In this document: in pieces, positions 13,490 to 37,482 of the stretch
Layout: every line of letters begins with the position of its first letter
Position numbering within the stretch: position 1 is the first letter of the stretch
DNA from: a virus
Length of the DNA stretch: 44,191 nucleotides
IMG/VR virus record: IMGVR_UViG_3300020581_000018
Location: 1-44,191 of that record
Direction: 5' to 3' (one strand)
Notes under the pieces: model-generated
What the model was told of the DNA's origin: nothing
The model's input: the letters and a program-made list of their open reading frames with translations, nothing else
Database searches by the model: none
Program-made: the position numbers and the translations under genes

Positions 13490-13497
13490 GAGATTTT

Positions 13498-13707: not shown

Positions 13708-13719
13708 ACGGGGTGACTT

Positions 13720-14007: not shown

Positions 14008-14008
14008 T

Positions 14009-18169: not shown

Positions 18170-18170
18170 A

Positions 18171-19907
18171 ATGGGAACACCTCCCAATCCGATGCAGGCA
18201 CCACCCGCCGACTTGATTACACAGATGCTCGGTCAAGCGGCTGGCCAACAGGCAAATGCGGCAGGGAACACTCAAGTTGCTCCGCAAGTTCCTCAGCATC
18301 AAGTTCCACAACCTCAACCATTCCGGCCACAGCCGCAGCAAGGAACTCAGGCCGTTGGTCCGGGACAGGGCGCAGCCATGCGCGACCAGCGGATGCAAAA
18401 CTTTTCCACTAGCATCCAGAATCTAGTTGGCGCTGTCACTACAACAATTCAAAAAAGGAAAGCACGGCAGGAGCAAAAAGTATTCGACAACTTCGCTAAC
18501 TATGCCAAAGGCTCGCAGGATGCCCAAGGCCAGATGCAAGAGGCAATGGCGGCACTGAAAAAGAATCCGCAGGACAAAGAAGCGTACCAACGCTACTTGC
18601 AGGCGAAGCAGGCTTACGACCAAAACATGCAAAATCTGAACGACCTCGTAAGCGGAAAGAACGAGAAGAACGCGAAGTTGTTGGCAAAGGGCTACGGCAT
18701 TGACGATAAGAACGCAGGCACACCGGAGCGTCAAGCGGCGATTGCAGCGATAAAGAAGACGATGCCGGGGGTGCAGGGGAACGCAGCCAACCTCATGTCG
18801 CGCATGCCACAGGCACAGCAACTCACGCCGCAAGCGCAGGGACAGGCGCAAGCTGTTCAGGCAGGTTTGACCGCTAAAGCTCCTACAGGCGCATCTATTC
18901 TAAATTTCGCGTCGAAAGAGGACGCTATAAAAGCAGCAAAGGAACAAGCAATAGATAAGCGCAAGGCTTCCTTCATCGAGGTGTTACCAAAGATGGAGTC
19001 AGCGGGCTATTCGTTCGACAAAGGTTCAGACGGTAATCCACAGTTTGACGCGCAAGGATTTCCTAAAGTTCATGTGATGACGCAAGAGGAGCGCGACAAG
19101 AACCCCGCGAGTGCCGCTAAGAACGATCTATTGCAGGCCACGATTGATTTGAAGAAGGCGCAAACCGATGCGCTCATGAATCCCAATAATCCATCCTTGA
19201 AAGTAAAAGCGGCGGAGGCTTCGGCACGACTGAGAAATGCTTCCCTGGTGACAAATGGAGACGCCAAAGACATTGCCGCTGGAATTGAACGCGGCGACTT
19301 GCCTCCAACCATGAAGAGTTTGTATCGCAACGCAGCAAGCGTGGAGGCCGAACTAGCTAGACGTGGAGTGCCACTCGCCAAGATGGAGGCGGATTGGATG
19401 GCGACAAATAAACTGCTCGCCACTCTGAATGGACCTCAGCAAGTTCGCTTGCGGCAAGCCGTGCAATTCACTAGCGATTCGCTTGAAATAATTGACGACC
19501 TGTACTCCAAGTGGCTTAAAACTGGGTTGCCCAGTGGATTCAAAGAGTTCAACCGTGCCGCGCTCACCGCAGCTAAGAGCTTACCCGGAGAAGCGGGAAG
19601 TATAGCCAATCGTCTCGACGCGCAGTTGAACGATTTAACATCTGAATTGGGGACCGTGTACAAGGGCGGGAACTCTTCCACGGATGAGTCTTTGAAGTTG
19701 GCCGCAGGAAACTTGAAAGCAGAGTGGAATACAAAGACATTTCACGATGCCATTCAACAGGTGCGAACCAACTTGAAAATCCGTCAGAACTCTATCAAAA
19801 ACTCTCAGGTTGAGGGTGGTAATCCCGATAGTCCCTACAGGCCAACGCAGGATACAAGCGAAGACGATGCGATTCTCAAAATGCTGGATGATAGGGGGAA
19901 TCTTTGA
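18171..19907 (+). CDS. internal virion (ejection) protein, zero-frame product
   Basis: This 578-residue protein is Gln/Ala/Lys-rich and largely helical, with a Pro/Gln-rich start and coiled segments (around residues 95-160 and 240-420). It sits between two other ejection-type genes. The last codons are AGG GGG AAT CTT TGA C, which is the arrangement of the RF2 gene frameshift site. A +1 shift on CTT would continue into the next frame and yield a protein of about 692 residues. Both products could be made. No catalytic motif is obvious in the zero-frame part. Confidence 0.65.
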   Translation: MGTPPNPMQAPPADLITQMLGQAAGQQANAAGNTQVAPQVPQHQVPQPQPFRPQPQQGTQAVGPGQGAAMRDQRMQNFSTSIQNLVGAVTTTIQKRKARQEQKVFDNFANYAKGSQDAQGQMQEAMAALKKNPQDKEAYQRYLQAKQAYDQNMQNLNDLVSGKNEKNAKLLAKGYGIDDKNAGTPERQAAIAAIKKTMPGVQGNAANLMSRMPQAQQLTPQAQGQAQAVQAGLTAKAPTGASILNFASKEDAIKAAKEQAIDKRKASFIEVLPKMESAGYSFDKGSDGNPQFDAQGFPKVHVMTQEERDKNPASAAKNDLLQATIDLKKAQTDALMNPNNPSLKVKAAEASARLRNASLVTNGDAKDIAAGIERGDLPPTMKSLYRNAASVEAELARRGVPLAKMEADWMATNKLLATLNGPQQVRLRQAVQFTSDSLEIIDDLYSKWLKTGLPSGFKEFNRAALTAAKSLPGEAGSIANRLDAQLNDLTSELGTVYKGGNSSTDESLKLAAGNLKAEWNTKTFHDAIQQVRTNLKIRQNSIKNSQVEGGNPDSPYRPTQDTSEDDAILKMLDDRGNL

Positions 19908-20250
19908 CTGGAATAAGTTTGGTCCGCAAAACGCTCCCGGACTTATTAAGCAAGGTAATCTCGACCTCAGCAATCGTCCGGTAATTAAAAATCCCGATGG
20001 AACACACAGTTCTGAATATTCCACGTCTTTCCAAAACGAGAAGGGGCAGGAGGTTCTGGTCCCAACCGTAGTGAACGGTAAATTTCTTACACCGGACGGT
20101 AAAAAGCCTAAAGAGGGAAGCGCGGAAGAAAAGGCTATGTTTAAGAGGGCTTGGGAACATTACCTAAAGACAGGTGAGAATCTTGGAATATTCGACACAG
20201 CAGAGCACGCTGATTCAGCGGCAGAACTGATTCACAACAGGAAACAATAA
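19888..20250 (+). CDS. C-terminal ejection-protein domain (+1 frame)
   Basis: From GAC 19906 this frame encodes 114 residues of a domain recurrent in phage internal proteins: GNLDLSNRPVIKNPDGT, a following KGQEVLVPTVVNGKFL, and the end HYLKTGENLGIFDTAEHAD. As an independent gene it would have to start at ATG 19888 with no usable Shine-Dalgarno, and no other standard start exists until near the end. The best reading is that it is the C-terminus of the 18171 product reached by +1 frameshifting. The domain is well known in podovirus ejection and related proteins, but its activity is not established. Confidence 0.7.
   Translation: MIGGIFDWNKFGPQNAPGLIKQGNLDLSNRPVIKNPDGTHSSEYSTSFQNEKGQEVLVPTVVNGKFLTPDGKKPKEGSAEEKAMFKRAWEHYLKTGENLGIFDTAEHADSAAELIHNRKQ
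19893..19908 (+). promoter_or_regulatory. RF2-like programmed +1 frameshift site
   Basis: AGGGGG (19893-19898), three spacer bases AAT, slippery CTT (19902-19904) and stop TGA followed by C. In Escherichia coli prfB the same layout is AGGGGG TAT CTT TGA C. The downstream reading frame is exactly +1, with GAC TGG following as in prfB (CTT T GAC). The AGGGGG lies inside the upstream coding region and cannot act as a ribosome-binding site for the ATG at 19888, which precedes it. Confidence 0.75.
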
Positions 20251-20251
20251 A

Positions 20252-21850
20252 ATGCCCGATGAAACACAACAGCCAGATGTAGCGCAGCGTTTCAAGTCCC
20301 TACGACAAGACCGTCAGAAGGCATTAATTCAGAAGATGACTCCTGACCAGAAAGCGAAACTGAAAAGCGCCATCCTTGCCTCCCAAACCAAGAAAACCGC
20401 TGAACCCGTAAAGGAGATGGGTGCCAAGGACACAGCAAAAGCTGTGGGCAAAGCCGCAGTCGAAGGATACAAAGATTACTCTGTTGGATTCGCTAAAGCT
20501 GCCGGCGATGTCTCTATGACTATCGCAAAGGGTATTAACAAAATACCTGTAGTAGGCGAGAAGTTGTCGCCAAAGGCTGGCATCCAAGCTGGAGAAGACC
20601 TGATGAAATCCTCCAACACGATGCAAAGTGTTGGCAAGGTAGGAGAAGGAATTGTAGAGTTCGCGGCAGGGGCAGAAGCCATCGAAGGACTGTCAGCCGC
20701 ATTGAAAGCAAAAAACATTCCCGCTGTGGTAAAAATTATTCAGAGGTACCCTTGGCTAGCGAAATACGCAGGAGTTGGAATTAAGAACTACACGCTCGGA
20801 GCAGGGCAATCGCTTGCTCATGGAGATTTGAACCCGAACAAGGCAGGGCTATATACAGCCGCAACCGGAGTACTTGGCGAGCAGACATCTTCTCTATTCT
20901 CCAAGTATTCACCAAAGGCAGCGGTTAAGACGCAAGAGGCAATGAATCGCTATCTCGGACTATCGCAAAAGGACATGCCAAAGTGGGAGCGATTGAACGT
21001 CGGTGACGTGCGTGAAGTCGGGAAAACCGTTATCGAACGCGTTGGCGTAAAAGGTTCCGTGGAAGAACAGGCGCACGCTATCGAGACAGCGAGAAGCAAC
21101 GTCCAGGCACAGACTGAGCGTGTAGTCAAGGGCGGAGCGGCAAGGGCAATACCTCTCAAACAGCGCGTTGACCAAGTGGCCGCTAAAGTAGCCGATGAAA
21201 TGGAGCAGTCTATGCCGATTGACCGCGCACAGTTGGACAAGGCAATTCAGGCAAACGTAGACTGGGTAATGAAGAACAAGATTCTTACGCAGTACGGAAC
21301 GCCTTCGCCTTTTATTTCTGCCGAGGATGCGCTTAAACTTCGCCGCGAAATTGACGATGGAATCAAGTGGTCATCCTTCGGAGATTCCACCAACATCCAG
21401 CAAATGTTCCGCTCTGAACTAAGATCGGCGCTGAACCAGGACATTGAATCGGCACTCTCTCCCGCTGCTGCAAAGGACTTCTCTAACCTTAACCGTATCC
21501 ATAGCCGACTCATTATTGCCAGGGATGCAGCGAGAGGAAACGTAGTGCGCTCAGGACTCACTGGGAAGGTAGTTGGCGCTGGCGGTGGAGCGGCTCTCGG
21601 TGGTTACGAGGGTTACACGCATGGAGGAGCAAAGGGAGCCGTTGTAGGCGCAGCGGCAGGAGCCGTAGCAGGGGCAGCGGGAGGCAAGGCGATTACCGAT
21701 CCAAAAACGCAATTGCTGGCCCGTAGGAGCATTGAAGGGCTACTTCCTACCCTAAGAGCGCTTGCCAAAAAATCTCCTGCTCTACAGTCTTCCCTGAGCA
21801 GCGTATTGGGCAACAGCGGCGGTACTGGTTCCATCTCATCGAACCAGTAA
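20252..21850 (+). CDS. ejection protein with glycine-zipper hydrophobic end
   Basis: This 532-residue protein is basic and helical at the N-terminus (residues 1-60 rich in Lys and Gln), with a helical middle part. About residues 435-480 form a Gly/Ala zipper (GGAALGGYEGYTHGGAKG and a following GAAAGAVAGAAGG), a common membrane-active segment in phage channel-forming proteins. It closes the structural operon. ATG 20252 follows the previous frame by one base. I infer that it inserts into the host envelope during DNA entry. Confidence 0.6.
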   Translation: MPDETQQPDVAQRFKSLRQDRQKALIQKMTPDQKAKLKSAILASQTKKTAEPVKEMGAKDTAKAVGKAAVEGYKDYSVGFAKAAGDVSMTIAKGINKIPVVGEKLSPKAGIQAGEDLMKSSNTMQSVGKVGEGIVEFAAGAEAIEGLSAALKAKNIPAVVKIIQRYPWLAKYAGVGIKNYTLGAGQSLAHGDLNPNKAGLYTAATGVLGEQTSSLFSKYSPKAAVKTQEAMNRYLGLSQKDMPKWERLNVGDVREVGKTVIERVGVKGSVEEQAHAIETARSNVQAQTERVVKGGAARAIPLKQRVDQVAAKVADEMEQSMPIDRAQLDKAIQANVDWVMKNKILTQYGTPSPFISAEDALKLRREIDDGIKWSSFGDSTNIQQMFRSELRSALNQDIESALSPAAAKDFSNLNRIHSRLIIARDAARGNVVRSGLTGKVVGAGGGAALGGYEGYTHGGAKGAVVGAAAGAVAGAAGGKAITDPKTQLLARRSIEGLLPTLRALAKKSPALQSSLSSVLGNSGGTGSISSNQ

Positions 21851-21923: not shown

Positions 21924-22217
21924 ATGCCGGGACGTGCAGCTTTGAGCGGAACAAGCGATGCGATGGCAGACATTCGCGCCACACGCAAGGGCGAGAATAC
22001 GGCGGGGATTTCAGGTTCGGATACTTCCAAACTCGGCCTAATGGGACGCATGGGCGGGGACGCGAACGGCCAGTTGGTTGATCCGGCTTACACGCGAATC
22101 GACGCGGAAGTAGTTCACAAGGGAATGAACGGGACAGCGGATGGCGGACAGATGGGATTCGAGTCCGGTTCAGGCCGTACCTTTGGCGGCGGCGGTTCCA
22201 GGCGAAAAGAAGATTGA
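21924..22217 (+). CDS. small Gly-rich disordered protein (97 aa)
   Basis: I do not recognise this protein. It is rich in Gly, Ser, Asp and Arg, has no hydrophobic core, and ends in a basic segment (GGGGSRRKED). It is probably disordered and may bind nucleic acid or another virion protein. CTGGAGGC lies 7 nt before the ATG. It is the first gene after the 21859 promoter. Confidence 0.55.
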   Translation: MPGRAALSGTSDAMADIRATRKGENTAGISGSDTSKLGLMGRMGGDANGQLVDPAYTRIDAEVVHKGMNGTADGGQMGFESGSGRTFGGGGSRRKED

Positions 22218-22224
22218 AACGAAT

Positions 22225-23526
22225 GTGCGTATCCTCCTCGCATCGTCCCACGGCATCGGGGCATGGTTCCTCATACGTCTAATCGAAGAGGGGAACCAAT
22301 GCGACTGGTTTTTTGTCGAAGAGCCTACCCAAGCAGAGAAGCGCACACTTCGCGGACTGATACCAGCCCCTATTGAAAATCCAAAGTTTGAAGAGTATGA
22401 CCTGTGTATTTTTGATTGCACGGGCCACGGTGAGATTGCCGATCAAATCGCTAAAGTAACTCCCACCATAGGCGACAGCGTTTTTGCCTCACGTCTGGAA
22501 GATGACCGCCTATTCGGTATCGAAGTTATGGAACGGTGCGGCATTGAAGTTTCACGGTGGGACTCGTTCGCTAACCCCGAAGCGGCTCGCAAGTTCCTTG
22601 CAAAACATCCTTCCCGATACGTCTACAAACCTTTCGAGATTCCCGGTGAAGAGGACCAAGATGCGTCCGCAACCTATGTAAGCGAATCACCAGAGGACAT
22701 GCTCAAACGCCTCGATCAACTCTTTGAGCAAACAATGCACGCCCCTTTCCTTTTGCAAGAGGTTGTAGACGGAATTGAAATCAGCACAGAGGCATATTTC
22801 GATGGTGAGCAATTCTTCTTTCACAACCACACAATCGAAAAAAAGAAATTGATGTCCGGTGATTACGGTCCCAATACCGGATGCGCGGGAAACCTAGTTT
22901 GGAACATTGACCAACAAAACAAACTGTTTAGGCATGGACTTGGGAGAGCGAAAGAATTTCTTGCTGATTCGGGATTCCGAGGAATGATTGATCTGAATAC
23001 CATAGTATGCCGGAACCATGCTTTCGGATTGGAGTGGACTCCTCGTTTTGGTTATGACGCTTCAGCGTCTATCTTCTGCACGATTCAAGAGCATGAAACG
23101 AACTTCTCCGATTTCTTGTACGCGATTTCCACTGGTCCTGTAGAGCCAAATACGAATCCAGTGAAATTGAGAGCGAAGTATGCGGCTTCGCAACGGTACA
23201 GTTTACCGCCATACCCGGAGGAGATGCCGGGACGACACTCACGCGGTATTCCGATAAAGGGCATCAACCCACTAGAGATTCCGCATCACTGGTTTTTGTA
23301 TGACGCAATGATTGATCCCGAACCAGATGAGGATGGTCTTGTAACAGCGGGAACTACCGGCCTTGTATGCTGCCCTATCGCTCCGGGGCACAGTCCAGAA
23401 GGCGCATGGTACGGAGTTCGCAACCTAACGAAGAACATCAAGTTTGCCAACGCGCAAGTGCGTGACGACCTAGAAGAATGCACGGTCAAGATTTTTGAAG
23501 ATTTACAGGAGTACGGTTGGATATGA
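22225..23526 (+). CDS. ATP-grasp ligase (PurD-like)
   Basis: This 433-residue protein has the architecture of ATP-grasp carboxylate-amine ligases close to PurD. It has an N-terminal Rossmann-like start (VRILLASSHGIGAWFLI) and an ATP-binding Lys near residue 134 (YVYKPFEIPGEED). An adenine-contact strand LLQEVVDGIEIS lies near 178, and the metal-binding signature GLEWTPRFGYDAS is near 268. ATP-grasp enzymes form peptide-like bonds from ATP, acid and amine. Its substrate is unknown. GTG 22225 is preferred; the frame upstream overlaps the previous gene. Its stop overlaps the start of the first secreted fibre (ATGA), hinting at a shared pathway. Confidence 0.75.
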   Translation: MRILLASSHGIGAWFLIRLIEEGNQCDWFFVEEPTQAEKRTLRGLIPAPIENPKFEEYDLCIFDCTGHGEIADQIAKVTPTIGDSVFASRLEDDRLFGIEVMERCGIEVSRWDSFANPEAARKFLAKHPSRYVYKPFEIPGEEDQDASATYVSESPEDMLKRLDQLFEQTMHAPFLLQEVVDGIEISTEAYFDGEQFFFHNHTIEKKKLMSGDYGPNTGCAGNLVWNIDQQNKLFRHGLGRAKEFLADSGFRGMIDLNTIVCRNHAFGLEWTPRFGYDASASIFCTIQEHETNFSDFLYAISTGPVEPNTNPVKLRAKYAASQRYSLPPYPEEMPGRHSRGIPIKGINPLEIPHHWFLYDAMIDPEPDEDGLVTAGTTGLVCCPIAPGHSPEGAWYGVRNLTKNIKFANAQVRDDLEECTVKIFEDLQEYGWI

Positions 23527-25988
23527 GAAAAATACTTCTAACCATCATTTTCGCATGTTCTCCAATGGTGTGCTTTGCCCAAAGCACAACGGTATCAGGA
23601 CAAGTTACAGATGCAGGAAGCCAATCGTGGAACAACGGAACGGTAAGTTTTTCTTTTGTTCCTGCTCCCAATCAAAACATAAAGCCTTCCGTCTGGACTG
23701 GCGGAGCATTCAATCCCACGCAAACGATAATCACATCGCTTAACTCTTCTGGGGCCTACTCAGTGTCGATCCCATCGAATACCGCTATATCGCCAGCCGG
23801 ATCGAGTTGGACTATTTGCGCTACTCCGCAAGCCACTTCCCCTCCATTCTGCTCAACACAGGCTGTTACGGGAGGAACGCAGACAATCAATCTAACCCCT
23901 CCTGCTATCTCAATCGGCCCTGGACCTGGAAGCGTGGTCTACGCTACAAGTGAAATCAGTGCTGCGGTGATCGGTTCACAGACTTACTTGCTAGGAACTG
24001 GGTTGGAGATTTGTAGTGCCGTTTCCGGGAATGCCTGCATAACATGGGGATCTGCCGGGGGCGGGGCCGCTCCCAATTCACCATTGCCACTATCCTCCGG
24101 TCCCGGCCCAGTCTTCAACGTCGTGAACTATGGAGCAGTCAACGATGCTCTGTCTACAGCGCAGGGCGCTTGCACTTCTGCCGCTACCACGACTATGACC
24201 TGCACAGGGGCTGGATTCGTTCAAGCCAGAGATGCAGGGAAGACTTTCTTTTGTTCCAACGGAACTTCCAGCTTCTATACAGCACTGACGACCATAGTTT
24301 CCGTGACAGATTCAACGCACGTTGTGACAAGCAACGCATCCTTGTTCAACACTTTCACCTGCACGGCAGTTTGGGGAACGCTAAACGACACTGCGGTTGC
24401 GGCAGCGGCAACGGCGGCAATAGCCCAATCATCCGCCGTTCAATCTGGAGGTAAGAAGTTACCGAGCACTGGTGCTCCGACACTATATTCGCCTGCTGGC
24501 GGATATCTGTTCTGCACTCTGTTGGTAAATGGCGTTGTGAACCTCACGGGAACCGTGGATGGCTTCACCGTATTAGGAGATGGACGCGACCAGACCATTT
24601 GGTATGCAGGAAGCGGAGCCACACCATGTCCACTTACAAATAACAGCTCCTTGGGAGCTTTCGTGAACACGGGTGGAAGTACGACCAACATAACCATCAA
24701 GGGGATAACCTTTGACGGCGCGAACAATGCCAACACGAACCAATCAGCGGGGCTGGGGCTTGCTGGAGCGGTGAATTTGCAGGATGTAACGGTGCAGCGG
24801 TGGGGCAGCGGTGGACCTGCGGTATTTCTTGGCGGCCAGCATTTCGTTGACCGTCTGTTCGTTGTAGCTGGAACAGGTATCGGCATCCAATGCACTGCAT
24901 GCAACGCCGATCTCAATAACATCGGAACATCGAACAATGGAACCAGCTCAGCGAATCTGATCTTCCAAAATATAATTGGTAGTGCCACTGGCTATGGGGT
25001 CCGCGTGCGCGGTGGAAGTATCGTAGATGAATGCGGGAACAACGCCACGGGTTGCACGCAGTTGATTAATTCTCGGGATGTCTGGTTTGAGGGATTGGCG
25101 GCATTCGGAACGCCATCAGGACATTGCTTAAATGTTGACGCCAACTCCTACCTTCACTGGATAGGTGGAATCTGCGGAACGTTCAACAACGACACAAACA
25201 CAGGCGGTCCCGTAATCGCCAACGGTGGAGTGATACAAGCCTCTGATGTCCGCATGATAAGCACTGGGACCGGGAAATGCCTGACGAACAACGGCCAGTT
25301 CAACGACAACGGGGGAAATACCTGCGAGTCCATGTTCCAGATCGTCAGCGGCACATCGACTGGCACCTCGGCGGTTCTGACGCTAACAACTTTGGGAGCC
25401 AACGCAAGCACAAATTGCTCCGTTGGTGACAGCATCGAAGTGGATGGTGCAGGTGTCGCAGGTTATAACGGGTTTTTCCAGAACGCAATCACGGCAACAG
25501 GCGCAAGTTCTCTGACCTATACGAGTGTGGGCAGCAACATGGGAGCGTTAGGCGCTGGTGGCGTAGCCTATTGCAAGAATCTGCAAACCTACTCGGGTAC
25601 TCTGCCAAAAGCCCTGCTTAACAATCCGATCCCCAACACCTGTTATGTAACCGGAACTTTCGGCGCAACAGTTACTGGCGCTCCGATGTGCGCCTTCAAA
25701 ACGCAATCCGCGACTAATATAACGAATATCAAGGCGGCTTCAACTACGGTAACGGCCTGCACTGTGGCCCCAGTCGTCACGATCTCGGACGGAACGGCTA
25801 CTGTCACCTTGACTCTGACCACCGCGAAGTCCTTGTGGGACAGTTCCGTAGACACAAGTACGGGTGTAGGCACGACAATTTTCAAGCCAAATGGAACGAT
25901 TCAGGTGACGAACACAGTGGGAACCTGCACGACACCACCAACGAATTTTTCAGTGAGCTACAATATCAGTCCGATTTTGAGCAACTAA
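23523..25988 (+). CDS. secreted beta-helix fibre/spike-like protein
   Basis: This 821-residue protein begins with a typical Sec signal peptide (residues 1-20, ending CFAQ). Residues 21-110 form a beta module (with WNNGTVSFSFVP and ISPAGSSW) shared with the 26479 protein. A pectate-lyase-like opening NVVNYGAVNDALS near 200 introduces a long repetitive beta region consistent with a right-handed beta-helix. A small module with SVGDSIEVDGAGVAGYNG is at about 615-685. Such folds are usual in phage tail spikes that bind or cut polysaccharide. A Sec signal on a virion spike would be unusual. ATG 23523 overlaps the ATP-grasp stop. Confidence 0.7.
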   Translation: MRKILLTIIFACSPMVCFAQSTTVSGQVTDAGSQSWNNGTVSFSFVPAPNQNIKPSVWTGGAFNPTQTIITSLNSSGAYSVSIPSNTAISPAGSSWTICATPQATSPPFCSTQAVTGGTQTINLTPPAISIGPGPGSVVYATSEISAAVIGSQTYLLGTGLEICSAVSGNACITWGSAGGGAAPNSPLPLSSGPGPVFNVVNYGAVNDALSTAQGACTSAATTTMTCTGAGFVQARDAGKTFFCSNGTSSFYTALTTIVSVTDSTHVVTSNASLFNTFTCTAVWGTLNDTAVAAAATAAIAQSSAVQSGGKKLPSTGAPTLYSPAGGYLFCTLLVNGVVNLTGTVDGFTVLGDGRDQTIWYAGSGATPCPLTNNSSLGAFVNTGGSTTNITIKGITFDGANNANTNQSAGLGLAGAVNLQDVTVQRWGSGGPAVFLGGQHFVDRLFVVAGTGIGIQCTACNADLNNIGTSNNGTSSANLIFQNIIGSATGYGVRVRGGSIVDECGNNATGCTQLINSRDVWFEGLAAFGTPSGHCLNVDANSYLHWIGGICGTFNNDTNTGGPVIANGGVIQASDVRMISTGTGKCLTNNGQFNDNGGNTCESMFQIVSGTSTGTSAVLTLTTLGANASTNCSVGDSIEVDGAGVAGYNGFFQNAITATGASSLTYTSVGSNMGALGAGGVAYCKNLQTYSGTLPKALLNNPIPNTCYVTGTFGATVTGAPMCAFKTQSATNITNIKAASTTVTACTVAPVVTISDGTATVTLTLTTAKSLWDSSVDTSTGVGTTIFKPNGTIQVTNTVGTCTTPPTNFSVSYNISPILSN

Positions 25989-25989
25989 C

Positions 25990-26457
25990 ATGAGAAAACG
26001 GTACATTGCGGGTATAGCGAGCGTTTCCCTTATTCTGCTGACGGTCCACTTCATTCAGGCCCAGAATAATCAGACTGTCGGCGGTCAGGTAACGGTTGTC
26101 TCTGCGTCTCCATCGAATTGCACGCTTGGAACGCTGTTCTTCAACACTACGACGAATCTTCTTTCTGTCTGCAAGGTAACGGACACTCTGGTTACGGTCA
26201 TGGTTCCGCCGTTGCGTGGGACAACTGGAACGATTACTGGAACTATCCTCGTAATTGGAGGCTGCGACACAGGCACGGCATCAATTGCTGGGGCGACAAC
26301 AAGCATGCACGCGAGTGCTAGCCCGGTAACCGACCCTGGGACGGGGGTAGTTTGGCACGCATGGGTATCAAGTGCGAATACCGTGACAGTGAAGGAATGT
26401 GCGTTACTAAGTTTGACTCCGGCAAATACTACTTACAATGTTGTGGTCAACCCATGA
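25990..26457 (+). CDS. small secreted beta protein
   Basis: This 155-residue protein has an N-terminal signal peptide (KRYIAGIASVSLILLTVHF, then IQAQNN), predicted cleavage near residue 25. The mature part is all beta, Thr/Val/Gly-rich, with three or four cysteines and no charged patches. It starts one base after the previous stop. Its order inside the fibre cluster suggests an accessory or adaptor to the fibres. I do not recognise a named family. Confidence 0.6.
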   Translation: MRKRYIAGIASVSLILLTVHFIQAQNNQTVGGQVTVVSASPSNCTLGTLFFNTTTNLLSVCKVTDTLVTVMVPPLRGTTGTITGTILVIGGCDTGTASIAGATTSMHASASPVTDPGTGVVWHAWVSSANTVTVKECALLSLTPANTTYNVVVNP

Positions 26458-26478
26458 ACAACTTAAAGAGAGCATACG

Positions 26479-29400
26479 ATGAAGGGTAAATTCTTATTTA
26501 TATTACTGTGCTTTCTATTTTCCATCAGGTCATCCGCACAGACTACATCGGTAACATTCACGATCACGGATCTTGACGGCATAGCATGGACAAATGGCAA
26601 CTGGACCGCTACTTTCATTCCCAATCCTTCTTTCTCAGGTCCATACAAATATCTAGGAGCGAATTTTGTTCCACAGACTTTCTCTGGAGTGTTGGACGGG
26701 AGCGGACATGGTTCAGGAAATATCCCAGATAATAATTGCATCTCCCCAGCAGGGAGCCAGTGGCAATTTACATTGCAATCGTACACCTCTGCCCCAGCGA
26801 CAAACATCACCACGATAGTTACAGGGAGTCCCGGAAGTTGCACAGGAGGAACAAAAGATTTTACAACGCTTTTTTCCGCTGGAGTGAAGGCACCTAGATT
26901 TTCAGCCACCGCAGGATCATTCGGGTATTCGACGGTAGAAGTAACGCAAATCCCCAATCCTGGTGGCCAGTTTTATAACGTGACATTGGGTTGCATGGAG
27001 ATTTGGAGCGGTTCAGTATTCGCCTGCAACAACGGCGGCGGTGGAGCTAATCCGGCTGGAAACAACGGAGACGTGCAGACAAAGAATGGTGCGAATCTCG
27101 CAGCTTCAGGTCTTAATGAAACAAATGGAGTACTGACTAACACTGATACCAATAGCAACCGAGGACCTAATCCAAGCGTAGACATTACCGCCCCGCCATT
27201 CAATGCTTCTGCTGTAAGCACATCGTCGATTCCGCTTACAACAGGAACAATTACCGGGGGCACAAATTCGCTCGTAGTGGCTAGCAATACTGGATGGCAA
27301 AAAAACTATGGCCTTTCGCAAGTTGGTGGAGGAGCAACGAACTGCGGGACGACTCCGTCTGCACCTTTGGTTACGCCTTCGATTGCTTCTTCTATGCCTG
27401 GGACAGGGCACTCGGTCCCTGGTGCAACTGGCTCTACTTCTTACAGCTACGTTGTTATTGCCATCAGCAAGGGAGGCTGCTATACGGCGGCAAGTTCCAT
27501 CGGAACAACTTCAGCCGGAAACGCGACGCTCGGCGCAACCAACCTTCCGATTACCAGTTTTGTGAATCTGGCTGGTACAGTAACGGCTACGGTTGGCTCA
27601 ACGACTGGCCTAGCTACTGGAATGTATGTCCGCATCGGAGGATCAACGGATGATGGCGAGTTCGGCGGCTATCACAACATCACGGTCTTAAATGGGACTC
27701 AATTCACCTACACAAGCAACGTCAGCAGCATTTATCCGATGTTCAGCACTACAGCAACCGGAGGAACGCTCTACTTCCAAGTTGCGAACCACATCGCCCT
27801 TCCCGCATTGCCAGCCGGCACGAATATGTACAAATTCGCCGTGTATCGCTGTACGGGAGCTTCTTGCGCCCTGCCTGCGAATGCGGCCAACTATTCGCTC
27901 GTCTATATCAGCTACCCGGCGAACCTTGGCTTCATCGACGTTGCCTACAACACTTGGGACGATTACGGAACTGTCAGCACGGTAAATTCGTTTAGTACTC
28001 CGTGGTTCATTCCGACGACCCCTCCAGCAGCGAACGTCAATGACATGCTGGTGACTTCGATCACCAACATCTCAGGAACGACTTTCACTCTCGCGGCCAA
28101 TGCTACAAATAGCACCACATCTCTTCCCGTCCGCTTCGATGGCGCACCAGCGATTACGGCTTGCGAGGCCGCATCGAACACAACCAGCTCGGGCGGTGGC
28201 GGGTCATGCCACATGCCGCCACAACTAGAAAATGGCTCAGGTGGAGTTCTCTGTTACGTCACAAGCTCTTATCTGGTTTTGAACTCAATCACCAATATAG
28301 GTGGCGCATTCTGCCCCGGAGAAACGGTTGAACTTTCTGGAGCACGCTCCGCCCTAAATGGAACTGGCGAAGACACGATCCATTCAACCATACCCGGCTT
28401 TGGCACACAGACTCTTTTGCAATGGACTTGCTTAGGAGCAAATCCCTGTATCTGGCGCAAAGGCGCTCCAATGCGGAATCTCTACATCACATCTTCCGGT
28501 CCTGGAGAGATGCTAGTATTCGATTCAACCGCAGCCAATCAGACGTTGACCGAGAACGTGCATTTCAATGTTCCTGACGGCATGGGGATTGGTTATCTTG
28601 CCTATGAAGCAGCATTTGGCGGATATTGGCGCAACACGGGGTGGACTGGTGGGCCATCTCAAGTTATCGGAGCTACCGCCGCTCCTCTCTACATCAACCG
28701 AGATAGCATCCAAACCAACTTTGATAACATCACTGGCTCGCTTCGCGGTTTGTATTTTGAATGCACAAATAATCCTCCAAACTCATGTGCAAACTATATC
28801 TCTATCAAGCAAGGGAATGAATGGCAAGGCCCTATCACACCACTGGTTACAATTAACGCTTCCAATGGAGGCAGGGTTGGCTGGGTTTATCTGGAGCACA
28901 TGATTCAAGACTCCGGGGCAGAGCCTATATTTGTCAGTGCTTCTAACGGGGGGGCTAATCTTTCATCGCTAATCATCAATGGAACGAATCAGCCTGGTAG
29001 AGATCCCGGCGCACCGCTCGGAGGAAATCAGCCGGTCATCAGCGGAAATACATTCGGCGGAGGCGTGTCTTTGCTTACCGATTCTCCGCTAGTTCAAAGT
29101 GTTGGCATGAATCACGATTTAATGCAATGCCCCCAAGCTAACATCCCCAATCCATCTTATAGGGGATGCGTCCTGCCCAGCTTGAATCTGGCGAATTCCA
29201 CGTATTCCGCTAACCACACGCTTACCGCTTCCGAAGGCGTAGTCAACATCACTGGCACAGCTACGATCACCGTCCCTCACGCTTTGGCCGGACAGACATG
29301 GTTCGTCTATAGCCAGTCCGGTACGACAACGTTGGCGATAGATTCAGGAACGCTCTATGGCAACGGAGCCACAGGGAGTTTTGTCATTCCCAACAGTTCT

Positions 29401-30825
29401 GGCGTATTCGTCACAGCCGATGGGACAAACGCCCATGCTGGAGGCAATGGTGGAGGTGGAGGCGGTGGTTGCGCTCCGGGCGGCATCACAAATGCCTTTC
29501 AGTACAATGGTGGAGGGACGTGCTCATTCAACGGTGTGAATGCTCCAACAATTGCTGGAGATTACGTTTTACATTATCCGACGCCTACAAGTTCTTCCGT
29601 TGCTCCTACGCGTGACCTTGTAGGAATCCCTATCAATCCGCAAACGGGAACCACCTACGTTGAAGGTTCAGCCAACTATCAATGCGACCGCGGATTTCTG
29701 ATTACTGCGAGCAACGCTGGAGCGCAAACCTATACAGTTGGAAACCCGGCCAGTTTTTGCTTTAGTCAGAATTATTTCAACGTCCTCGACAACATCAACA
29801 CTGGCGTAGTTACAGAAACAGCTAGCGGTTTCTCGATCAATGGCGCAGGGTCATTCGTAACTCCGCCGAGTTGGATACGCTGGCTCTGGTCAAATGGTGT
29901 GAATGACTTTGCGGAAGCGGTGCCAACGCTAAGAGCGTTTCCGAACAGTTGCACAACGGCCATAACGGTAGTCGCTGGTGTATTCAACTGCGGCGCTGCT
30001 GGGGCGGTGTCTTCATGGTCTGGAGATGGAGCACTTTATAACAACAGCAGTTCAGTTGGCGCAGTCACGGCTACACTCGCTAACGCTGGGGCTAACACGG
30101 TTTGGGGACGTTGTGTTAGCAGTACCGGACTCCCATCTTACTGCCAAATCACCGATACGATGCTGACGGCAGTAAGTCATGCGGCTCTGTTTAACGCAGG
30201 CAATACATGGACAGGCTTACAGGATTTCTCGGGAGCTACTTGGAAGATTCCCACATTAGGGGGATTCACGGCGGGCGCAGCTTCCATGTGTGGATACGAT
30301 TCAACCGCCAAGATCACGCACTGCTTAACGAATGGCGCTGATTCCGATGTTGCCACAACCACCACTACTTCCACTATAGTGACTCAGGTACTTCACGCTA
30401 CGGCGGTGCCGAGTATTTACGTTCCCAGCGCCATCGTAACCGCCGACCTGCCCGCCCAGTACACCAAAGGCTCCTGTATGGAACTGTGGGGCGGATCGGG
30501 GTCGTCTTTTGTGCTGACCTCTGGCGATGACGCCATCTCAAACAACTCCTGCTACAACGATTCCGGCGTGACACGCACGATTACCGCCGTGAAGTGCTTT
30601 AGCGACAACGCGGCGAACACAACGACCGTGAACCCAACTTTCGGCGCATCCGGCACAGGAACAACGATCCTTTCCGGCGCTCTAACCTGTGGGAACAGCA
30701 ACGCCATGAGTGCGAGTGGAACGGTCAGCAACGCAAGCTGGACGACGGGGACCGGCATTGATCCGGTAATGGGCGGGACTCTGACCGGAACGCACATTGC
30801 AATGATTGTGGAGTACACATTTTGA
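26479..30825 (+). CDS. giant secreted fibre/spike-like protein (1448 aa)
   Basis: This is the largest gene in the window. Residues 1-20 are a Sec signal peptide (KGKFLFILLCFLFSI then RSSAQ). Residues 21-110 share the WTNG and ISPAGSQW module of the 23523 protein. A module at about 365-434 (GLATGMYVRIGGSTDD then NITVLNGTQFTYTS) recurs in two other proteins of the cluster. The middle contains long Thr/Ser/Asn-rich beta repeats and a segment (HFNVPDGMGIGYLAYEAAFG) of beta-helix type. The C-terminus is Gly/Thr-rich and ends in IVEYTF. Putative tail fibre, adhesin or depolymerase. AAAGAGAG precedes the ATG at 26479, and the stop overlaps the next TTG. Confidence 0.65.
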   Translation: MKGKFLFILLCFLFSIRSSAQTTSVTFTITDLDGIAWTNGNWTATFIPNPSFSGPYKYLGANFVPQTFSGVLDGSGHGSGNIPDNNCISPAGSQWQFTLQSYTSAPATNITTIVTGSPGSCTGGTKDFTTLFSAGVKAPRFSATAGSFGYSTVEVTQIPNPGGQFYNVTLGCMEIWSGSVFACNNGGGGANPAGNNGDVQTKNGANLAASGLNETNGVLTNTDTNSNRGPNPSVDITAPPFNASAVSTSSIPLTTGTITGGTNSLVVASNTGWQKNYGLSQVGGGATNCGTTPSAPLVTPSIASSMPGTGHSVPGATGSTSYSYVVIAISKGGCYTAASSIGTTSAGNATLGATNLPITSFVNLAGTVTATVGSTTGLATGMYVRIGGSTDDGEFGGYHNITVLNGTQFTYTSNVSSIYPMFSTTATGGTLYFQVANHIALPALPAGTNMYKFAVYRCTGASCALPANAANYSLVYISYPANLGFIDVAYNTWDDYGTVSTVNSFSTPWFIPTTPPAANVNDMLVTSITNISGTTFTLAANATNSTTSLPVRFDGAPAITACEAASNTTSSGGGGSCHMPPQLENGSGGVLCYVTSSYLVLNSITNIGGAFCPGETVELSGARSALNGTGEDTIHSTIPGFGTQTLLQWTCLGANPCIWRKGAPMRNLYITSSGPGEMLVFDSTAANQTLTENVHFNVPDGMGIGYLAYEAAFGGYWRNTGWTGGPSQVIGATAAPLYINRDSIQTNFDNITGSLRGLYFECTNNPPNSCANYISIKQGNEWQGPITPLVTINASNGGRVGWVYLEHMIQDSGAEPIFVSASNGGANLSSLIINGTNQPGRDPGAPLGGNQPVISGNTFGGGVSLLTDSPLVQSVGMNHDLMQCPQANIPNPSYRGCVLPSLNLANSTYSANHTLTASEGVVNITGTATITVPHALAGQTWFVYSQSGTTTLAIDSGTLYGNGATGSFVIPNSSGVFVTADGTNAHAGGNGGGGGGGCAPGGITNAFQYNGGGTCSFNGVNAPTIAGDYVLHYPTPTSSSVAPTRDLVGIPINPQTGTTYVEGSANYQCDRGFLITASNAGAQTYTVGNPASFCFSQNYFNVLDNINTGVVTETASGFSINGAGSFVTPPSWIRWLWSNGVNDFAEAVPTLRAFPNSCTTAITVVAGVFNCGAAGAVSSWSGDGALYNNSSSVGAVTATLANAGANTVWGRCVSSTGLPSYCQITDTMLTAVSHAALFNAGNTWTGLQDFSGATWKIPTLGGFTAGAASMCGYDSTAKITHCLTNGADSDVATTTTTSTIVTQVLHATAVPSIYVPSAIVTADLPAQYTKGSCMELWGGSGSSFVLTSGDDAISNNSCYNDSGVTRTITAVKCFSDNAANTTTVNPTFGASGTGTTILSGALTCGNSNAMSASGTVSNASWTTGTGIDPVMGGTLTGTHIAMIVEYTF

Positions 30826-31553
30826 TTCAGCTTAAGGCCATCGCTTGCTGCTTGATTTTCCTGCTCGGCTCGTTGCAGGAAGTCGTTTCTGCTAGACGCA
30901 GAGTAAGCAGCGGAGGCGTCAACATCACTCCAGACGCTTTCGCAAATTCGTCTGTAGTTTTCAGCGGCACAACCATTTCGTGGTCGCACACAGTCGGTGC
31001 AGGCTCGCATTCCTTCCTGTACGTTTCTCTCGCGGGAGCTGCCACCACAGGTGCGGCCAGTGCGACTTGTACTTATAACAGTGTCTCCATGACATTTCTG
31101 GCCTCAAAGATTGATGGAGGCAATGGAGATGCGGTTGCGGCTTTCAAGCTCGTAAATCCAACTACGGGCACAAACACGGTTTCCTGTACTTGGGGCGCAA
31201 CTATTTCCACATTAATTGGGCAATCCTCCAGTTGGTTCGGCGTCAATCAAGTCACGCCTAATCGCACTCCATTTACCGCCAACAATGGGGGCAGCGCAGC
31301 CTTATCCCCAACCGCGGTTGTCGTATCGAATGCCGTAGCTAATGACGTTGTGCTGGACACTACGCAAGTCTTTGTCAATCCAATTGCTGTTGGCTCGGGC
31401 CAGACTACCCGCTTCTTGCGTAACAACGTGGGCGGAAACAACTGGGGGTTTGGCAACTCGAGCGAAGGTGCCAGCGGCAGTACAACGATGAGCTGGACGT
31501 ATTCAGGTACTAGATTCTGGGCTGCGATTGGGGTGGCACTGATACCAGGATGA
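30822..31553 (+). CDS. secreted beta-sandwich protein
   Basis: This 243-residue protein has a signal peptide (residues 2-22, ending SLQEVVSA). The mature region is a single beta-sandwich of the lectin-like type often found in bacterial surface proteins: ISWSHTVGAGSHSFLYVSL at the start, TGTNTVSCTWG in the middle and FWAAIGVALIPG at the end. The start is TTG 30822, overlapping the stop of the 1448-residue gene (TTGA), and the stop overlaps the next ATG. A carbohydrate-binding accessory role is plausible. Confidence 0.6.
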   Translation: MIQLKAIACCLIFLLGSLQEVVSARRRVSSGGVNITPDAFANSSVVFSGTTISWSHTVGAGSHSFLYVSLAGAATTGAASATCTYNSVSMTFLASKIDGGNGDAVAAFKLVNPTTGTNTVSCTWGATISTLIGQSSSWFGVNQVTPNRTPFTANNGGSAALSPTAVVVSNAVANDVVLDTTQVFVNPIAVGSGQTTRFLRNNVGGNNWGFGNSSEGASGSTTMSWTYSGTRFWAAIGVALIPG

Positions 31554-34051
31554 GAAAACTATTCCTTATTTTGCCACTGCTTCTTGCCTCGGTTTCGCAG
31601 GCTCAGACTCTATGTCCAAGCACTAGCGGTACAGTTGCTTTTCTTTGCGCGGCTGGAGCGACTACGGCCGATGTAGCAGCGGCAATTAGCGCTGCCACCG
31701 ATGGGGCGGTCATCACCTTCTCGCCGGGTACGTATGGGAACATCATCTTCCCCAAGTTCTCTAGCGCAAAAGGTGTAACAGTCCAATGCGCTACTCCCTA
31801 TCCAATAGGAACGATTTCAATTACCGCGTGGTCGATCACGTCGAATGTTGCCACGTTTACAGCGGCTAATTCATTAGTTGCTGGGCAGACCGTGACTCTT
31901 TCTGCCTTTGGGACTTCGACGTTCTTCAACAATTATCCGATGACAGTTATTGCCACTGGACTAAGCAGCACTCAGTTCGAGGCTAATTTCACTCATGCCA
32001 ACGGATCGGCAACGGAATCAGGTACAGGGAATCTCGAAGCTGGCGGAGCTATAACCAATGCTTGTATTATCAACGCTCATGTAAGCGGAACTTTTCCAAA
32101 TCAGACTTCTTCTACGATTTTCGGTACAGATGCTCTCAGCGGGAATAACACTAAGTTCTATCGCATCTCAGGATTCACTTTCGATGGCGGCGGTTCCACC
32201 GTTCAGCCCACGTTTGGAACCATCTACTTCGACAGCTACAACGGCAGTCAGAATGCCACCATGTCTGGTCCAGCAGGGAACGGCGGTTTTCGCCTTGACC
32301 ATAACACCTTCCGCAATTCCAAAACAGGCTCCCAGATGTTCCTCTGTGGCAGTGTTCCCGGTCCTCCCATCATTATGAATTGCTACGGAGTGATTGACCA
32401 TAATCTCTACGTCAATCCGACAACGCTATCAATGGCGATTTCTGTCGGCAACTTCCCGAATCCCAAGCCCGCTCAACCGCAAATGGGGACAATTTACAAC
32501 ACCTTCATGGAGAACAATGTCCTCAACTTCGCCGCTACGGGAAATACTAGCGCCGAGGGTTGCGTCGATAACTGGATCGGGCCTTACGTCATACGGCATA
32601 ACGTGGCGCTGAATTGTCTCTGGCTCAATCACGGGGAAACTCATTTAGGCGGTCCAATAAACTTCGAGTTCTACAACAATGCAAGCACCATCACGGATAC
32701 AACTACCGGAGTAGGCGATTGCAATGAGCAGGTTCACCTGCAAGGCGCAGGGACGGTGATGCTATTCAACAATACCTGCATGCCTGCTTCCGGGCACACA
32801 AACAATGGCTTTCAGTTTCAGGAATATCGTGGGGGGGCAGGTACGGCGGGCAACACTTTCTCTGTTACGGCGGTTGCGGTAGGCCCAGGAAGTGCAATCA
32901 CGTATACCGGAACTGGATTAGCTTCCGCTCCTCATGGTTGGTACAACTTCAGCGGTTTCGTGAACGCCGGGAACAATACCTTCACGCAAATCACGTCATC
33001 TACAGCTACAACACTAGTCGGGATCACCACTAAAAGCCTTTTGACGCAAGTGAATGAGTCTGGTGCTACAGCCACCGCCAACTTCTCCTCACAGGATGGC
33101 TCTGCTCCGCAGTGTGACGGCACCGTGGCTTCTCCTGCTACGGTTGTATGGGCAACAACGGCCCCGGATGGCAACCGTTCTCCAATCGCTACCTATCGCG
33201 GGTATCCTTGCGGCAACCAACCAGGGCGCGACCTCGCTGGAAATATCCAGCCCATCTATGCAGCAAACAATCTCTTCCAAGATAACGGCGCAATCCTGCC
33301 CATGAAGTTTGGAAGCGTCGGAGGTGTGCTCGATTACTTCTCAGCCCACATGCAATCCCAGCGCGAGTGGTTCGATGAAGTTGGAAACACGGCGCAATCA
33401 AATGCCACTACGCCTTTTAATGGAACCACAGGAACGGGATGGGGCACGCTCGCCAACCGGCCAACTACTTGCACCAGCAATACAACTGAAAACGCCTTCG
33501 GAGCAGGAACCAGCGGGGTCGGCTACTATGCTACCGACCAAGGCTCTCAAGGCACTTGGTATAAATGCACCGCAACCAATACCTGGACATCGTTCTATAC
33601 GCCTTACACCTATCCGCATCCACTCGTAACTGCCACTTCCGCACCTGTTGCCACATTCTCAGTAAACCCCGTGAACATAGGACAAGTTCCTGTCGGCTTT
33701 ACCAGCAACCCAACAGCGACAATTACGCTCACAAACACCGGCACAGCTAACCTAGTCGTGAGTTCCGTGCTTTTACACATCCCCGTCTTCTCGCTCGTCA
33801 ACAATACCTGCGGAACGCCAGCTACGATAAATTCCAGCACTCCCGGCGTAGGCTTTACGCTGACACCCGACTCAAGCTGCACGTTCCAAGTGCAGGCACA
33901 AGCTCCCGCAGGCAACCCGCAGGCATGGTCCGATACCGCCACGTTTGGCGATAACACGCCTGCTACTTTTGATTCTTTACTACTAACGATGAATGCCGCA
34001 GGGCCACCAGCACCAACAATAGGTCTTTCTGCTAGGAGGAACCAACCATGA
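31550..34051 (+). CDS. secreted beta-helix protein with choice-of-anchor D domain
   Basis: This 833-residue protein has a signal peptide ending SVSQAQ near residue 19. Residues about 100-166 are the recurring small beta module (SLVAGQTVTLSAFGTST). The middle shows right-handed beta-helix rungs with HN/NN turns (FRLDHNTF, VIDHNLY, MENNVLNF, VIRHNVA), typical of polysaccharide lyases. Residues about 699-820 match the choice-of-anchor D (ASH-like) domain (NIGQVPVGFTSNPTATITL, CTFQVQAQ). The ATG overlaps the previous stop. Likely a polysaccharide-binding or degrading surface or spike protein; no catalytic residues are identified. Confidence 0.7.
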   Translation: MRKLFLILPLLLASVSQAQTLCPSTSGTVAFLCAAGATTADVAAAISAATDGAVITFSPGTYGNIIFPKFSSAKGVTVQCATPYPIGTISITAWSITSNVATFTAANSLVAGQTVTLSAFGTSTFFNNYPMTVIATGLSSTQFEANFTHANGSATESGTGNLEAGGAITNACIINAHVSGTFPNQTSSTIFGTDALSGNNTKFYRISGFTFDGGGSTVQPTFGTIYFDSYNGSQNATMSGPAGNGGFRLDHNTFRNSKTGSQMFLCGSVPGPPIIMNCYGVIDHNLYVNPTTLSMAISVGNFPNPKPAQPQMGTIYNTFMENNVLNFAATGNTSAEGCVDNWIGPYVIRHNVALNCLWLNHGETHLGGPINFEFYNNASTITDTTTGVGDCNEQVHLQGAGTVMLFNNTCMPASGHTNNGFQFQEYRGGAGTAGNTFSVTAVAVGPGSAITYTGTGLASAPHGWYNFSGFVNAGNNTFTQITSSTATTLVGITTKSLLTQVNESGATATANFSSQDGSAPQCDGTVASPATVVWATTAPDGNRSPIATYRGYPCGNQPGRDLAGNIQPIYAANNLFQDNGAILPMKFGSVGGVLDYFSAHMQSQREWFDEVGNTAQSNATTPFNGTTGTGWGTLANRPTTCTSNTTENAFGAGTSGVGYYATDQGSQGTWYKCTATNTWTSFYTPYTYPHPLVTATSAPVATFSVNPVNIGQVPVGFTSNPTATITLTNTGTANLVVSSVLLHIPVFSLVNNTCGTPATINSSTPGVGFTLTPDSSCTFQVQAQAPAGNPQAWSDTATFGDNTPATFDSLLLTMNAAGPPAPTIGLSARRNQP

Positions 34052-34254
34052 ACATACAACAGATAGTCGATTACGTGAAGTTGCATTGGGTCACTGTTCT
34101 TGCTTTGGGCATGGCGGTTTGGAACTATTCCGCTCCAACCGTACACGCCTACGTTGCCAACCATCCCGGAGCATCGTTCTGGTATGGATTGGCAGCGGTC
34201 GTCGTGACGTTCTACGTCAAGTCACCGATTACACCCACTGCGCCAAAGCCGTGA
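34048..34254 (+). CDS. small two-segment membrane protein
   Basis: This 68-residue protein has two hydrophobic stretches (VTVLALGMAVW and FWYGLAAVVVTFYV) joined by a short loop, the usual outline of a holin-sized protein. Its N-terminus (VKLHWVTVLAL) resembles that of the next gene (IEAHWGDLIAL), hinting at a tandem duplication. AGGAGG precedes the ATG, and the start overlaps the stop of the fibre gene. Holin is possible but unproven. Confidence 0.5.
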   Translation: MNIQQIVDYVKLHWVTVLALGMAVWNYSAPTVHAYVANHPGASFWYGLAAVVVTFYVKSPITPTAPKP

Positions 34255-35106: not shown

Positions 35107-35222
35107 CTGGTATCTTGCTGAACCTTGCCGAGTGCCATAGCGAGAGCGAGCGCAAAGTAGACAACGAGCACAGTAAATCCGAAGGAATAGCCAGGCACGA
35201 TCTTTAGCCGGTCGTCACTCAT
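34980..35222 (-). CDS. small two-segment membrane protein (80 aa)
   Basis: This 80-residue protein has two hydrophobic helices (YSFGFTVLVVYFALALAMA and MGPLGGLFCGWAFG) with polar ends, typical of a holin-sized protein. Its ATG at 35222 overlaps the stop of the DUF5675-type gene by 4 nt, so it is the last gene of that leftward operon. Its 3' end runs 127 nt into the convergent plus-strand gene. A lysis role is inferred from size and neighbours. Confidence 0.55.
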   Translation of the reverse strand: MSDDRLKIVPGYSFGFTVLVVYFALALAMALGKVQQDTSYGLDMVLTAMGPLGGLFCGWAFGKSKIGGISSGASSVTFHT

Positions 35223-35629
35223 AAGTCATCCTCATACTCGTTCGTCCGTGGAGCATCAAGAATTTCAATCTCGCAACCTTCGGTATTCACGCCTGCTTGG
35301 ATGAGCGGAAACAGTTCGTTGAACGCTTCTCGCGTTGAGAATATCTCTTCACTGGCCAAATCGCGCTGTTCACCTACCAAAATACACCCGTCGCTGTTCT
35401 GCGGATAATTTCCCCAATGAAGCAAGATGTCGCTGCGTCCCGGTACGTCCAAAAGAATCGGCATCAGCCGATTGAAGTGCGGCGAAGGATACAATCCGAG
35501 TTTGTAAACACCCGATGGGATTACGACTGCAATACGTTCCAGCGTGAATGCTTCGTGCTCACCGCCAAAAAACAGTTCTCCGGGGACCGAGACTTTGGCG
35601 GGGATTCCGCGTTGAAGAGTAAGGCGCAT
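35219..35629 (-). CDS. DUF5675-type phage protein
   Basis: This 136-residue protein follows the DUF5675 pattern: an opening LxR strand, a TLER segment (EAFTLERI), IPSGVYKLGLYPSPHF, then VPGRSDILLHWGN and a DGCILVG Cys. The family is common beside phage lysis genes and has been suspected of peptidoglycan activity; no reaction is established. The ATG at 35629 has no Shine-Dalgarno and follows a terminator-like hairpin and U-run by 3 nt. It is coupled to the membrane gene downstream. Confidence 0.75.
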   Translation of the reverse strand: MRLTLQRGIPAKVSVPGELFFGGEHEAFTLERIAVVIPSGVYKLGLYPSPHFNRLMPILLDVPGRSDILLHWGNYPQNSDGCILVGEQRDLASEEIFSTREAFNELFPLIQAGVNTEGCEIEILDAPRTNEYEDDL

Positions 35630-36157: not shown

Positions 36158-36880
36158 CTACACCGCTCCCAATTCTTGCAAGAGTCCTGTACTATCGAGG
36201 CCGCTTGGCGAGGTCCCGCTGGCCTTAATCCAATCGGGAGTTACGATAGCGTAGGCTTCCGTCACCCATTGCTGCCAGAACTCCCACACTGTCCTGTAGA
36301 CTTTTCCCCAGGAATCTAGGGCCGAGCCGATGGAGCCATACCCTTCCCAATTTACGCAGTGGCCTTCGTTTGTCGGTTTGTCGTTTCGCAGAAAACTAAA
36401 GGTCGGCTCTATGCCCTGATTCATCTCATCCACCATCGACTGTGGTACGGTGAATCCCGTGTAGATTCCTCCGAAGATGTCGATGACGGCTTTCACCATT
36501 TCGATGTTCTGAACGTCAACGCTGGCTGCGCCAAGAATAATTCCTTTGGCTTTGTACCAGTTGATTACGTCGAGGCAAACTGCCCCATTGTCCGTTGCTT
36601 CCGTCCCATCGTATCCCGTGATAGCGGAGTAATCGGCTATCGCTTCCTCGTCTGTTACGAGAAGTGGGCTTCCCGCTCTGGCTACAGACCGTTGGGTCAT
36701 TCGCAGGTGGTACATTGCGGCCACAGTGCAAAGCCCGATTCTATCGTTGCCCAACATCCCAAGAACTATGTCCCGTTCCCATGCCCGTACAGGGCGGGAT
36801 TTGACCAGTTTCATGTTCATGTGGTTTGACATTGAAGCCATCTTGAGACTACGGACGGCTGGTAGCTTTCCGAACTTCAT
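36158..36880 (-). CDS. papain-like cysteine peptidase-fold protein
   Basis: This 240-residue protein fits a phage family with a papain/C39-like fold. A candidate nucleophile Cys51 lies in NDRIGLCTVAAM, followed by ADYSAITGYDG and a DIFGGIYTGFTVP segment, and a candidate His174 is in NEGHCVNWEGYG; a late EAYAIVTPDWI completes the pattern. Family members are often called hypothetical or structural. It may be an enzyme that cleaves peptides or cell-wall crosslinks, but activity is unproven. ATG 36880 overlaps the stop of the Tat lipoprotein gene (TAATG). Confidence 0.55.
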   Translation of the reverse strand: MKFGKLPAVRSLKMASMSNHMNMKLVKSRPVRAWERDIVLGMLGNDRIGLCTVAAMYHLRMTQRSVARAGSPLLVTDEEAIADYSAITGYDGTEATDNGAVCLDVINWYKAKGIILGAASVDVQNIEMVKAVIDIFGGIYTGFTVPQSMVDEMNQGIEPTFSFLRNDKPTNEGHCVNWEGYGSIGSALDSWGKVYRTVWEFWQQWVTEAYAIVTPDWIKASGTSPSGLDSTGLLQELGAV

Positions 36881-37434: not shown

Positions 37435-37453
37435 AGTTTTCTCCCTTTTCGTC

Positions 37454-37482
37454 ACTTTAGTCTTTTGGCCCAACTTCTACAA
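37454..37482 (-). promoter_or_regulatory. leftward promoter before Tat lipoprotein gene
   Basis: On the minus strand TTGTAG (complement of 37477-37482), a 17-bp spacer and TAAAGT (complement of 37454-37459). Transcription would start near 37447, about 13 nt upstream of the ATG. The -35 is imperfect. Confidence 0.35.

Follow-up and report, generated by a model that had tools for sequence, protein, structure and literature searches.

We propose that five consecutive genes of a virus encode tail fibres or spikes that are exported through the host Sec system, lose their signal, acquire disulfides in the periplasm and attach to the virions at lysis, a reading that we consider probable as a whole. 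Export is well supported, and we infer the attachment to virions. The DNA analysed (the window, 44,191 nucleotides, IMG/VR record IMGVR_UViG_3300020581_000018) is best explained as the genome of a podovirus-like soil phage. It encodes a terminase (phrog_38), an SU10-like portal, a Phage_capsid_4 major capsid protein and a Cpn10-domain protein (2547-3377, a phage protein with the GroES domain at its C-terminal end). A search of isolated phages with the terminase found two distant records only and no close isolate, and the fibre genes starting at 23523, 26479 and 31550 had no tblastn match in 50,697 phage records.

The gene order runs from internal virion proteins to an ATP-grasp gene, the five signal-peptide genes and small membrane proteins (Table 1). 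T7 has the same order around gp17, with internal proteins, fibres and small membrane proteins following one another, and podovirus tail fibres and tailspikes (T7 gp17-type position; K1/K5 lyase-type spikes) lie, like the genes described here, between internal virion and lysis genes. In IMG/VR the ATP-grasp gene has 219 relatives among viruses; a distant one in MW202796 likewise stands behind internal virion genes. The small membrane protein at the far end would be the first gene of a putative holin/lysis group, and a DUF5675 protein is encoded close to these putative lysis genes (35219-35629, minus strand).

Table 1. Features of the window discussed in the text (SP, signal peptide; a slash marks the predicted cut)
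Feature	Position	Strand	Remarks
Three cysteine-free genes; by position, probably internal/ejection proteins	17420-18169, 18171-19907, 20252-21850 (span 17420-21850)	+	no signal peptide
ATP-grasp (GARS_A-like) protein	22141-23526	+	conserved immediately 5' of the exported fibre genes
Predicted exported fibre/spike-like protein 1, 821 aa	23523-25988	+	SP, then a TTR-like N-terminal domain and a low-confidence beta-helix; mature chain with 24 cysteines
SP of protein 1	23523-23579	+	MRKILLTIIFACSPMVCFA/QST, predicted cut before Gln; +1 Gln common to nearly all relatives
Conserved N-terminal domain of protein 1, ~165 aa	23580-24074	+	pLDDT about 90; putative virion-attachment module
Predicted exported small protein 2, 155 aa	25990-26457	+	SP 25990-26061, MRKRYIAGIASVSLILLTVHFIQA/QNN (A/Q); 4 cysteines
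Predicted exported fibre/spike-like protein 3, 1448 aa	26479-30825	+	SP 26479-26538, MKGKFLFILLCFLFSIRSSA/QTT (A/Q); N-terminal domain 26539-27033; cysteines 33 in precursor, 32 in mature chain
Predicted exported protein 4, 243 aa	30822-31553	+	TTG start with SD; SP 30822-30893, MIQLKAIACCLIFLLGSLQEVVSA/RRR (A/R); 2 mature cysteines
Predicted exported fibre-like protein 5, 833 aa	31550-34051	+	SP 31550-31603, MRKLFLILPLLLASVSQA/QTL (A/Q); 16 cysteines
Two-helix membrane protein, 68 aa (sequence reading)	34048-34254	+	after AGGAGG

The sequence-only reading held that these five genes begin with Sec signal peptides, and all five ORFs were confirmed. In a home-made, rule-based scan (criteria: a basic n-region, nine uncharged residues as hydrophobic core, and small residues at -3/-1), with gene starts set mechanically on metagenomic contigs, they outscored every other plus-strand gene of the window (5.2-5.95), each with an n-h-c organisation and small residues at -3/-1. 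On the minus strand, two ORFs likewise exceed a score of 5, namely 18423-18851, which is probably spurious, and 36880-37473. Glutamine is the predicted +1 residue in four of the five proteins. The TTG start of protein 4 is supported because the ribosome-binding region ahead of it, GTGGAGTACACATT, is nearly identical in a relative (G005), which has TGTGGAGTATACATT ahead of an ATG. Protein 3 shares 65% identity in its C-terminal domain with a signal-bearing protein of this same relative, and protein 2 contains a GTLFFNTTTN motif resembling one found in the N-terminal domain family.

The cysteines of these proteins bear on cleavage independently of signal prediction. An even cysteine count is an accepted sign and predictor of exported, disulfide-bonded proteins (PMC7678975), and all five window proteins have an even number in the mature chain, as had all of the first 20 proteins compared. 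With the set thinned to 60% identity, the count is even in 49 of 53 mature chains (binomial p about 4e-11) and in 35 of 53 precursors, versus 72 of 156 other genes (46%); a larger, overlapping sample gave 61 even and 11 odd for mature chains, and 47 and 25 for precursors. Where signal removal shifts the parity, the shift favours cleavage in every case (14/14). Cysteines make up 2.0% of the signal-bearing proteins versus 0.16% of the upstream structural ones, and those of the N-terminal domain are gained or lost pairwise: both members of its main pair are present in 63 of 82 sequences, both absent in 13, and only 6 keep a single one. The bias is only mild in the exported sets of Granulicella (17 even, 13 odd) and E. 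coli (9 and 5). Even counts that appear only once the signal is removed argue that it is cleaved and that the chains fold in a compartment with oxidising conditions. Removal of the signal by host signal peptidase I, usually before Gln, is thus strongly supported as a prediction, as is the formation of disulfides by the mature chains in such a compartment, for which the periplasm is the simplest candidate.

It is very improbable, in contrast, that the hydrophobic N-termini stay uncleaved and anchor the proteins in a membrane or in the virion, or work as a signal-anchor-release (SAR) device. Export signals that stay uncut do occur in phages, as in the SAR endolysins (PMC6116005), but here the 14 parity shifts, the canonical residues at -3/-1, the Gln at +1, and the existence of signal-less relatives beginning at the domain boundary (see below) all speak for a cut. 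Secreted endolysins (Lys44 of fOg44 and the SAR endolysins) resemble the proteins described here as tailed-phage products that use the host Sec pathway, yet they are lysis enzymes rather than virion parts (PMC6116005).

A Gln at +1 is possible for 33 of 46 phage signals and for 23 of 37 from a Granulicella plasmid, versus none of 21 from E. coli. A preference of this kind has been reported in Bacteroidetes as the Q-rule (PMC5837995). Some 60% of the signals predicted on the Granulicella tundricola plasmid pACIX901 (L071-L090) could be cut before Gln, a Q-rule-like bias in Acidobacteriota. Our guess is that the host belongs to the Acidobacteriota, with Bacteroidota as the alternative. The genome search for the host yielded no kin of the virus records, and the N-terminal domain is absent from the Granulicella plasmid.

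Judged by their sequences, the signal-bearing fibre-like genes are a trait of the whole lineage, shared by dozens of uncultured relatives. Relatives found via the terminase and the first fibre gene carry up to five signal-peptide genes in the corresponding cluster. The mature N-terminal domain alone, used as an IMG/VR query, led to 17 loci, and in 16 of 16 examined a signal peptide directly precedes the domain and the mature chain starts with Gln, the weakest case (L065) having been judged by eye. For a sample chosen independently of the fibres, the ATP-grasp protein served as bait and gave 80 viral loci, 59 of them with at least 3 kb downstream; a signal-peptide gene of at least 250 aa follows in 48 of these 59. 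Among non-redundant genes, 72 of 95 downstream of the ATP-grasp gene passed the signal test versus 10 of 252 upstream, and the former figure is a lower bound because several downstream 'negatives' bear a signal by eye. Shine-Dalgarno-like motifs precede 67 of 85 signal-peptide starts of relatives versus 15% of random sites. Larger soil phages sharing the small module of protein 5 mix signal-bearing and signal-less members, some with odd cysteine counts; they belong to another lineage and were set aside. Compared with L001/L035, protein 1 is nearly identical in its C-terminal ~130 residues and differs in its N-terminal domain, an apparent recent domain swap in which the signal was retained.

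This distribution bears on whether the genes could be bacterial, within a stretch that is chimeric or stems from the host, or carried as accidental lysogenic-conversion cargo. Their signals do resemble those of the Acidobacteriota plasmid, but we find this origin scarcely credible: the genes occupy the same slot between virion and lysis genes on tens of independent viral contigs, and 84,980 species genomes, scanned twice by an exact-pattern method of only moderate sensitivity, returned no relative of the N-terminal domain.

The domain that follows the signal (~165 residues) is a transthyretin/carboxypeptidase-regulatory-like beta-sandwich, predicted with a pLDDT of about 90. Among its distinct relatives, 84 of 93 bear a signal (76 with Gln at or adjacent to +1) and nine bear none, these nine beginning at the domain boundary or close to it (MP-SSTTVSGQVTDS is one example). 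The signal-less members contain 0.44% cysteine versus 2.01% in the signal-bearing ones (p 4e-6). They are dispersed over the tree, on which the label switches at least six times, four of the switches being forced by well-supported branches; the closest relative of the protein 1 domain is itself a signal-less, cysteine-free protein (L135; support 100/97). Three clusters (L135, L143, L161) hold signal-bearing and signal-less members together, and in two others (L134, L141) no signal-bearing fibre was found. The signal thus seems to be an accessory that is acquired or dropped where the domain begins, and the conserved domain appears a better candidate for the virion anchor than an uncleaved signal. 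The sequence-only reading had offered a choice between an exported set of proteins and N-termini that serve as virion anchors. Export with cleavage is borne out by the even cysteines after signal removal, the Gln at +1 and the pairing of signal absence with low cysteine content. Anchoring by the signal is not, as the 165-residue module behind it also occurs signal-less in proteins of tail-fibre families, and the data favour fibres that are also exported.

The evidence for fibre or spike identity comes from homologues. The five window proteins themselves match no PHROG or Pfam family, hence no fibre or spike family. Signal-less relatives, on the other hand, match tail-fibre/virion families, namely L141 (phrog_9502, 3e-13, and YadA_stalk), L148 (phrog_30742, 1.4e-5) and L134 (phrog_6002, 1e-12); apart from L148, these matches lie more in the C-terminal portions than in the shared domain. 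A signal-bearing relative (L137) ends in a K1-lyase_C tailspike domain (3.7e-9), so that fibres or spikes are recognisable among members with and without a signal; another relative (L065) carries a GDSL esterase domain. The fold of the N-terminal domain gave middling matches to the tail and neck fibres of cyanophage A-1(L) and to the Ur-lambda tail tip (Z 8.6-9.3), and because this common fold also matches many secreted proteins, bacterial ones included, it is indecisive by itself. Beta-helix or beta-sandwich domains had been suggested for four of the five proteins. This holds for protein 1, with a confident sandwich and a low-confidence beta-helix (middling Z, region mostly under pLDDT 60), and for the homologous domain recognised by sequence in protein 3, but proteins 2, 4 and 5 received no assignment. 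An AF2 model of protein 3 (pLDDT 40) was discarded, the PDB sequence search gave no significant match, and Foldseek against BFVD gave no usable full-length one.

The main rival explanation, which we regard as unlikely, accepts export and denies the virion part: the five proteins would be secreted depolymerases, adhesins or decoys that, for example, free progeny or block superinfection. Signal peptides, Gln at +1 and the disulfide signature agree with it equally, the fold matches of protein 1 include secreted polysaccharide lyases such as RbmB besides tailspikes, and the N-terminal domain resembles secreted bacterial proteins. WceF of Pantoea stewartii is an exported protein with a tailspike-like fold, as proposed here, yet it is encoded by a bacterial gene in an exopolysaccharide cluster, carries a Tat signal and has no phage part (PMC7949094). 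Closer in kind are five Q-rule genes of Porphyromonas gingivalis phages ('Nixviridae'), phage genes whose products would likewise expose Gln upon cleavage; these have no assigned function, are not described as fibres and were interpreted as envelope modifiers (PMC10367356). Against mere secretion stand the signal-less proteins that share the gene slot and the N-terminal domain and match tail-fibre families, the signal-bearing member with a terminal tailspike domain, and the gene order. Moreover, no other fibre candidate was recognised in the window, and no outer-membrane export signal was seen in the five proteins.

According to the reading that we prefer, the five proteins would serve in receptor binding and in matrix degradation or binding, and would be routed through the host Sec translocon. 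Signal peptidase I would cut off the signal, and the mature chains would form disulfides, most simply in the periplasm, where they would remain until lysis, no signal for export across the outer membrane having been seen. At lysis, virions assembled in the cytoplasm would meet these chains and bind them via the conserved N-terminal domain, which would complete the particles. The signal-less fibres that carry this domain in some relatives would follow the ordinary assembly route. Since exported as well as cytoplasmic proteins carry the domain, in some cases within one phage, its partner should be reachable by both kinds, and the simplest candidate is the virion as it crosses the periplasm at lysis. 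In P22 and T4, spikes and fibres attach in vitro to finished particles, so late attachment would be feasible. We found no precedent in tailed phages for exported fibres attaching at lysis. We give about even chances to the general form of this proposal, a two-compartment assembly that would be widespread in soil phages of Acidobacteriota-like hosts. Head and tail tube would form in the cytoplasm; the receptor-binding fibres would, after export, be trimmed and acquire their disulfides in the periplasm and would click onto the particles at lysis; and in some relatives one virion would receive fibres of both origins, exported and cytoplasmic, that share an anchor domain.

The virions of tailed phages are assumed to be completed in the cytoplasm, and the known podovirus fibres and spikes are made and attached in this reducing compartment. 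The proteins described here share with the latter a conserved N-terminal module, variable C-termini, K1-lyase_C in one relative and, in a low-confidence model of protein 1, a beta-helix, but differ by the cleavable Sec signal and the paired cysteines. Filamentous phages do have Sec-exported virion proteins (pIII, with disulfides, and pVIII), yet these are membrane-anchored, assembly proceeds by extrusion at the membrane, and the phages are not tailed. Our literature search, limited to open-access full text and thus weak evidence of absence, turned up no account of tailed-phage fibres with signal peptides. If true, fibres that travel via Sec and contain structural disulfides would alter the picture of tailed-phage assembly, and the route would explain how very stable spikes are made. 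Such genes are also easily confused with the secreted auxiliary carbohydrate-active enzymes of soil viruses, a warning for annotation. Because some relatives combine fibres of both kinds, with and without a signal, on one anchor domain, the question lends itself to direct testing.

Some further export-like N-termini were seen. In MW202554 (L069), a GenBank uncultured podovirus distantly related to the window virus, a Collar-domain fibre protein and adjacent genes (13349-14374 and 24079-29579, minus strand) have signal-like N-termini, which counts in favour of exported fibres; that of the Collar-domain protein has no basic n-region, and the annotation is silent on signals. In the window, a 119-aa ORF (1571-1930) starts with a Tat-like motif (MSTRRDFFKAL...), and the minus-strand protein at 36880-37434 (ORF 36880-37473 in the signal scan) combines a twin-arginine motif with a lipobox-like LEGC (MNRRQFAGHLVGG...TLEGCSALN), making it a possible Tat lipoprotein.
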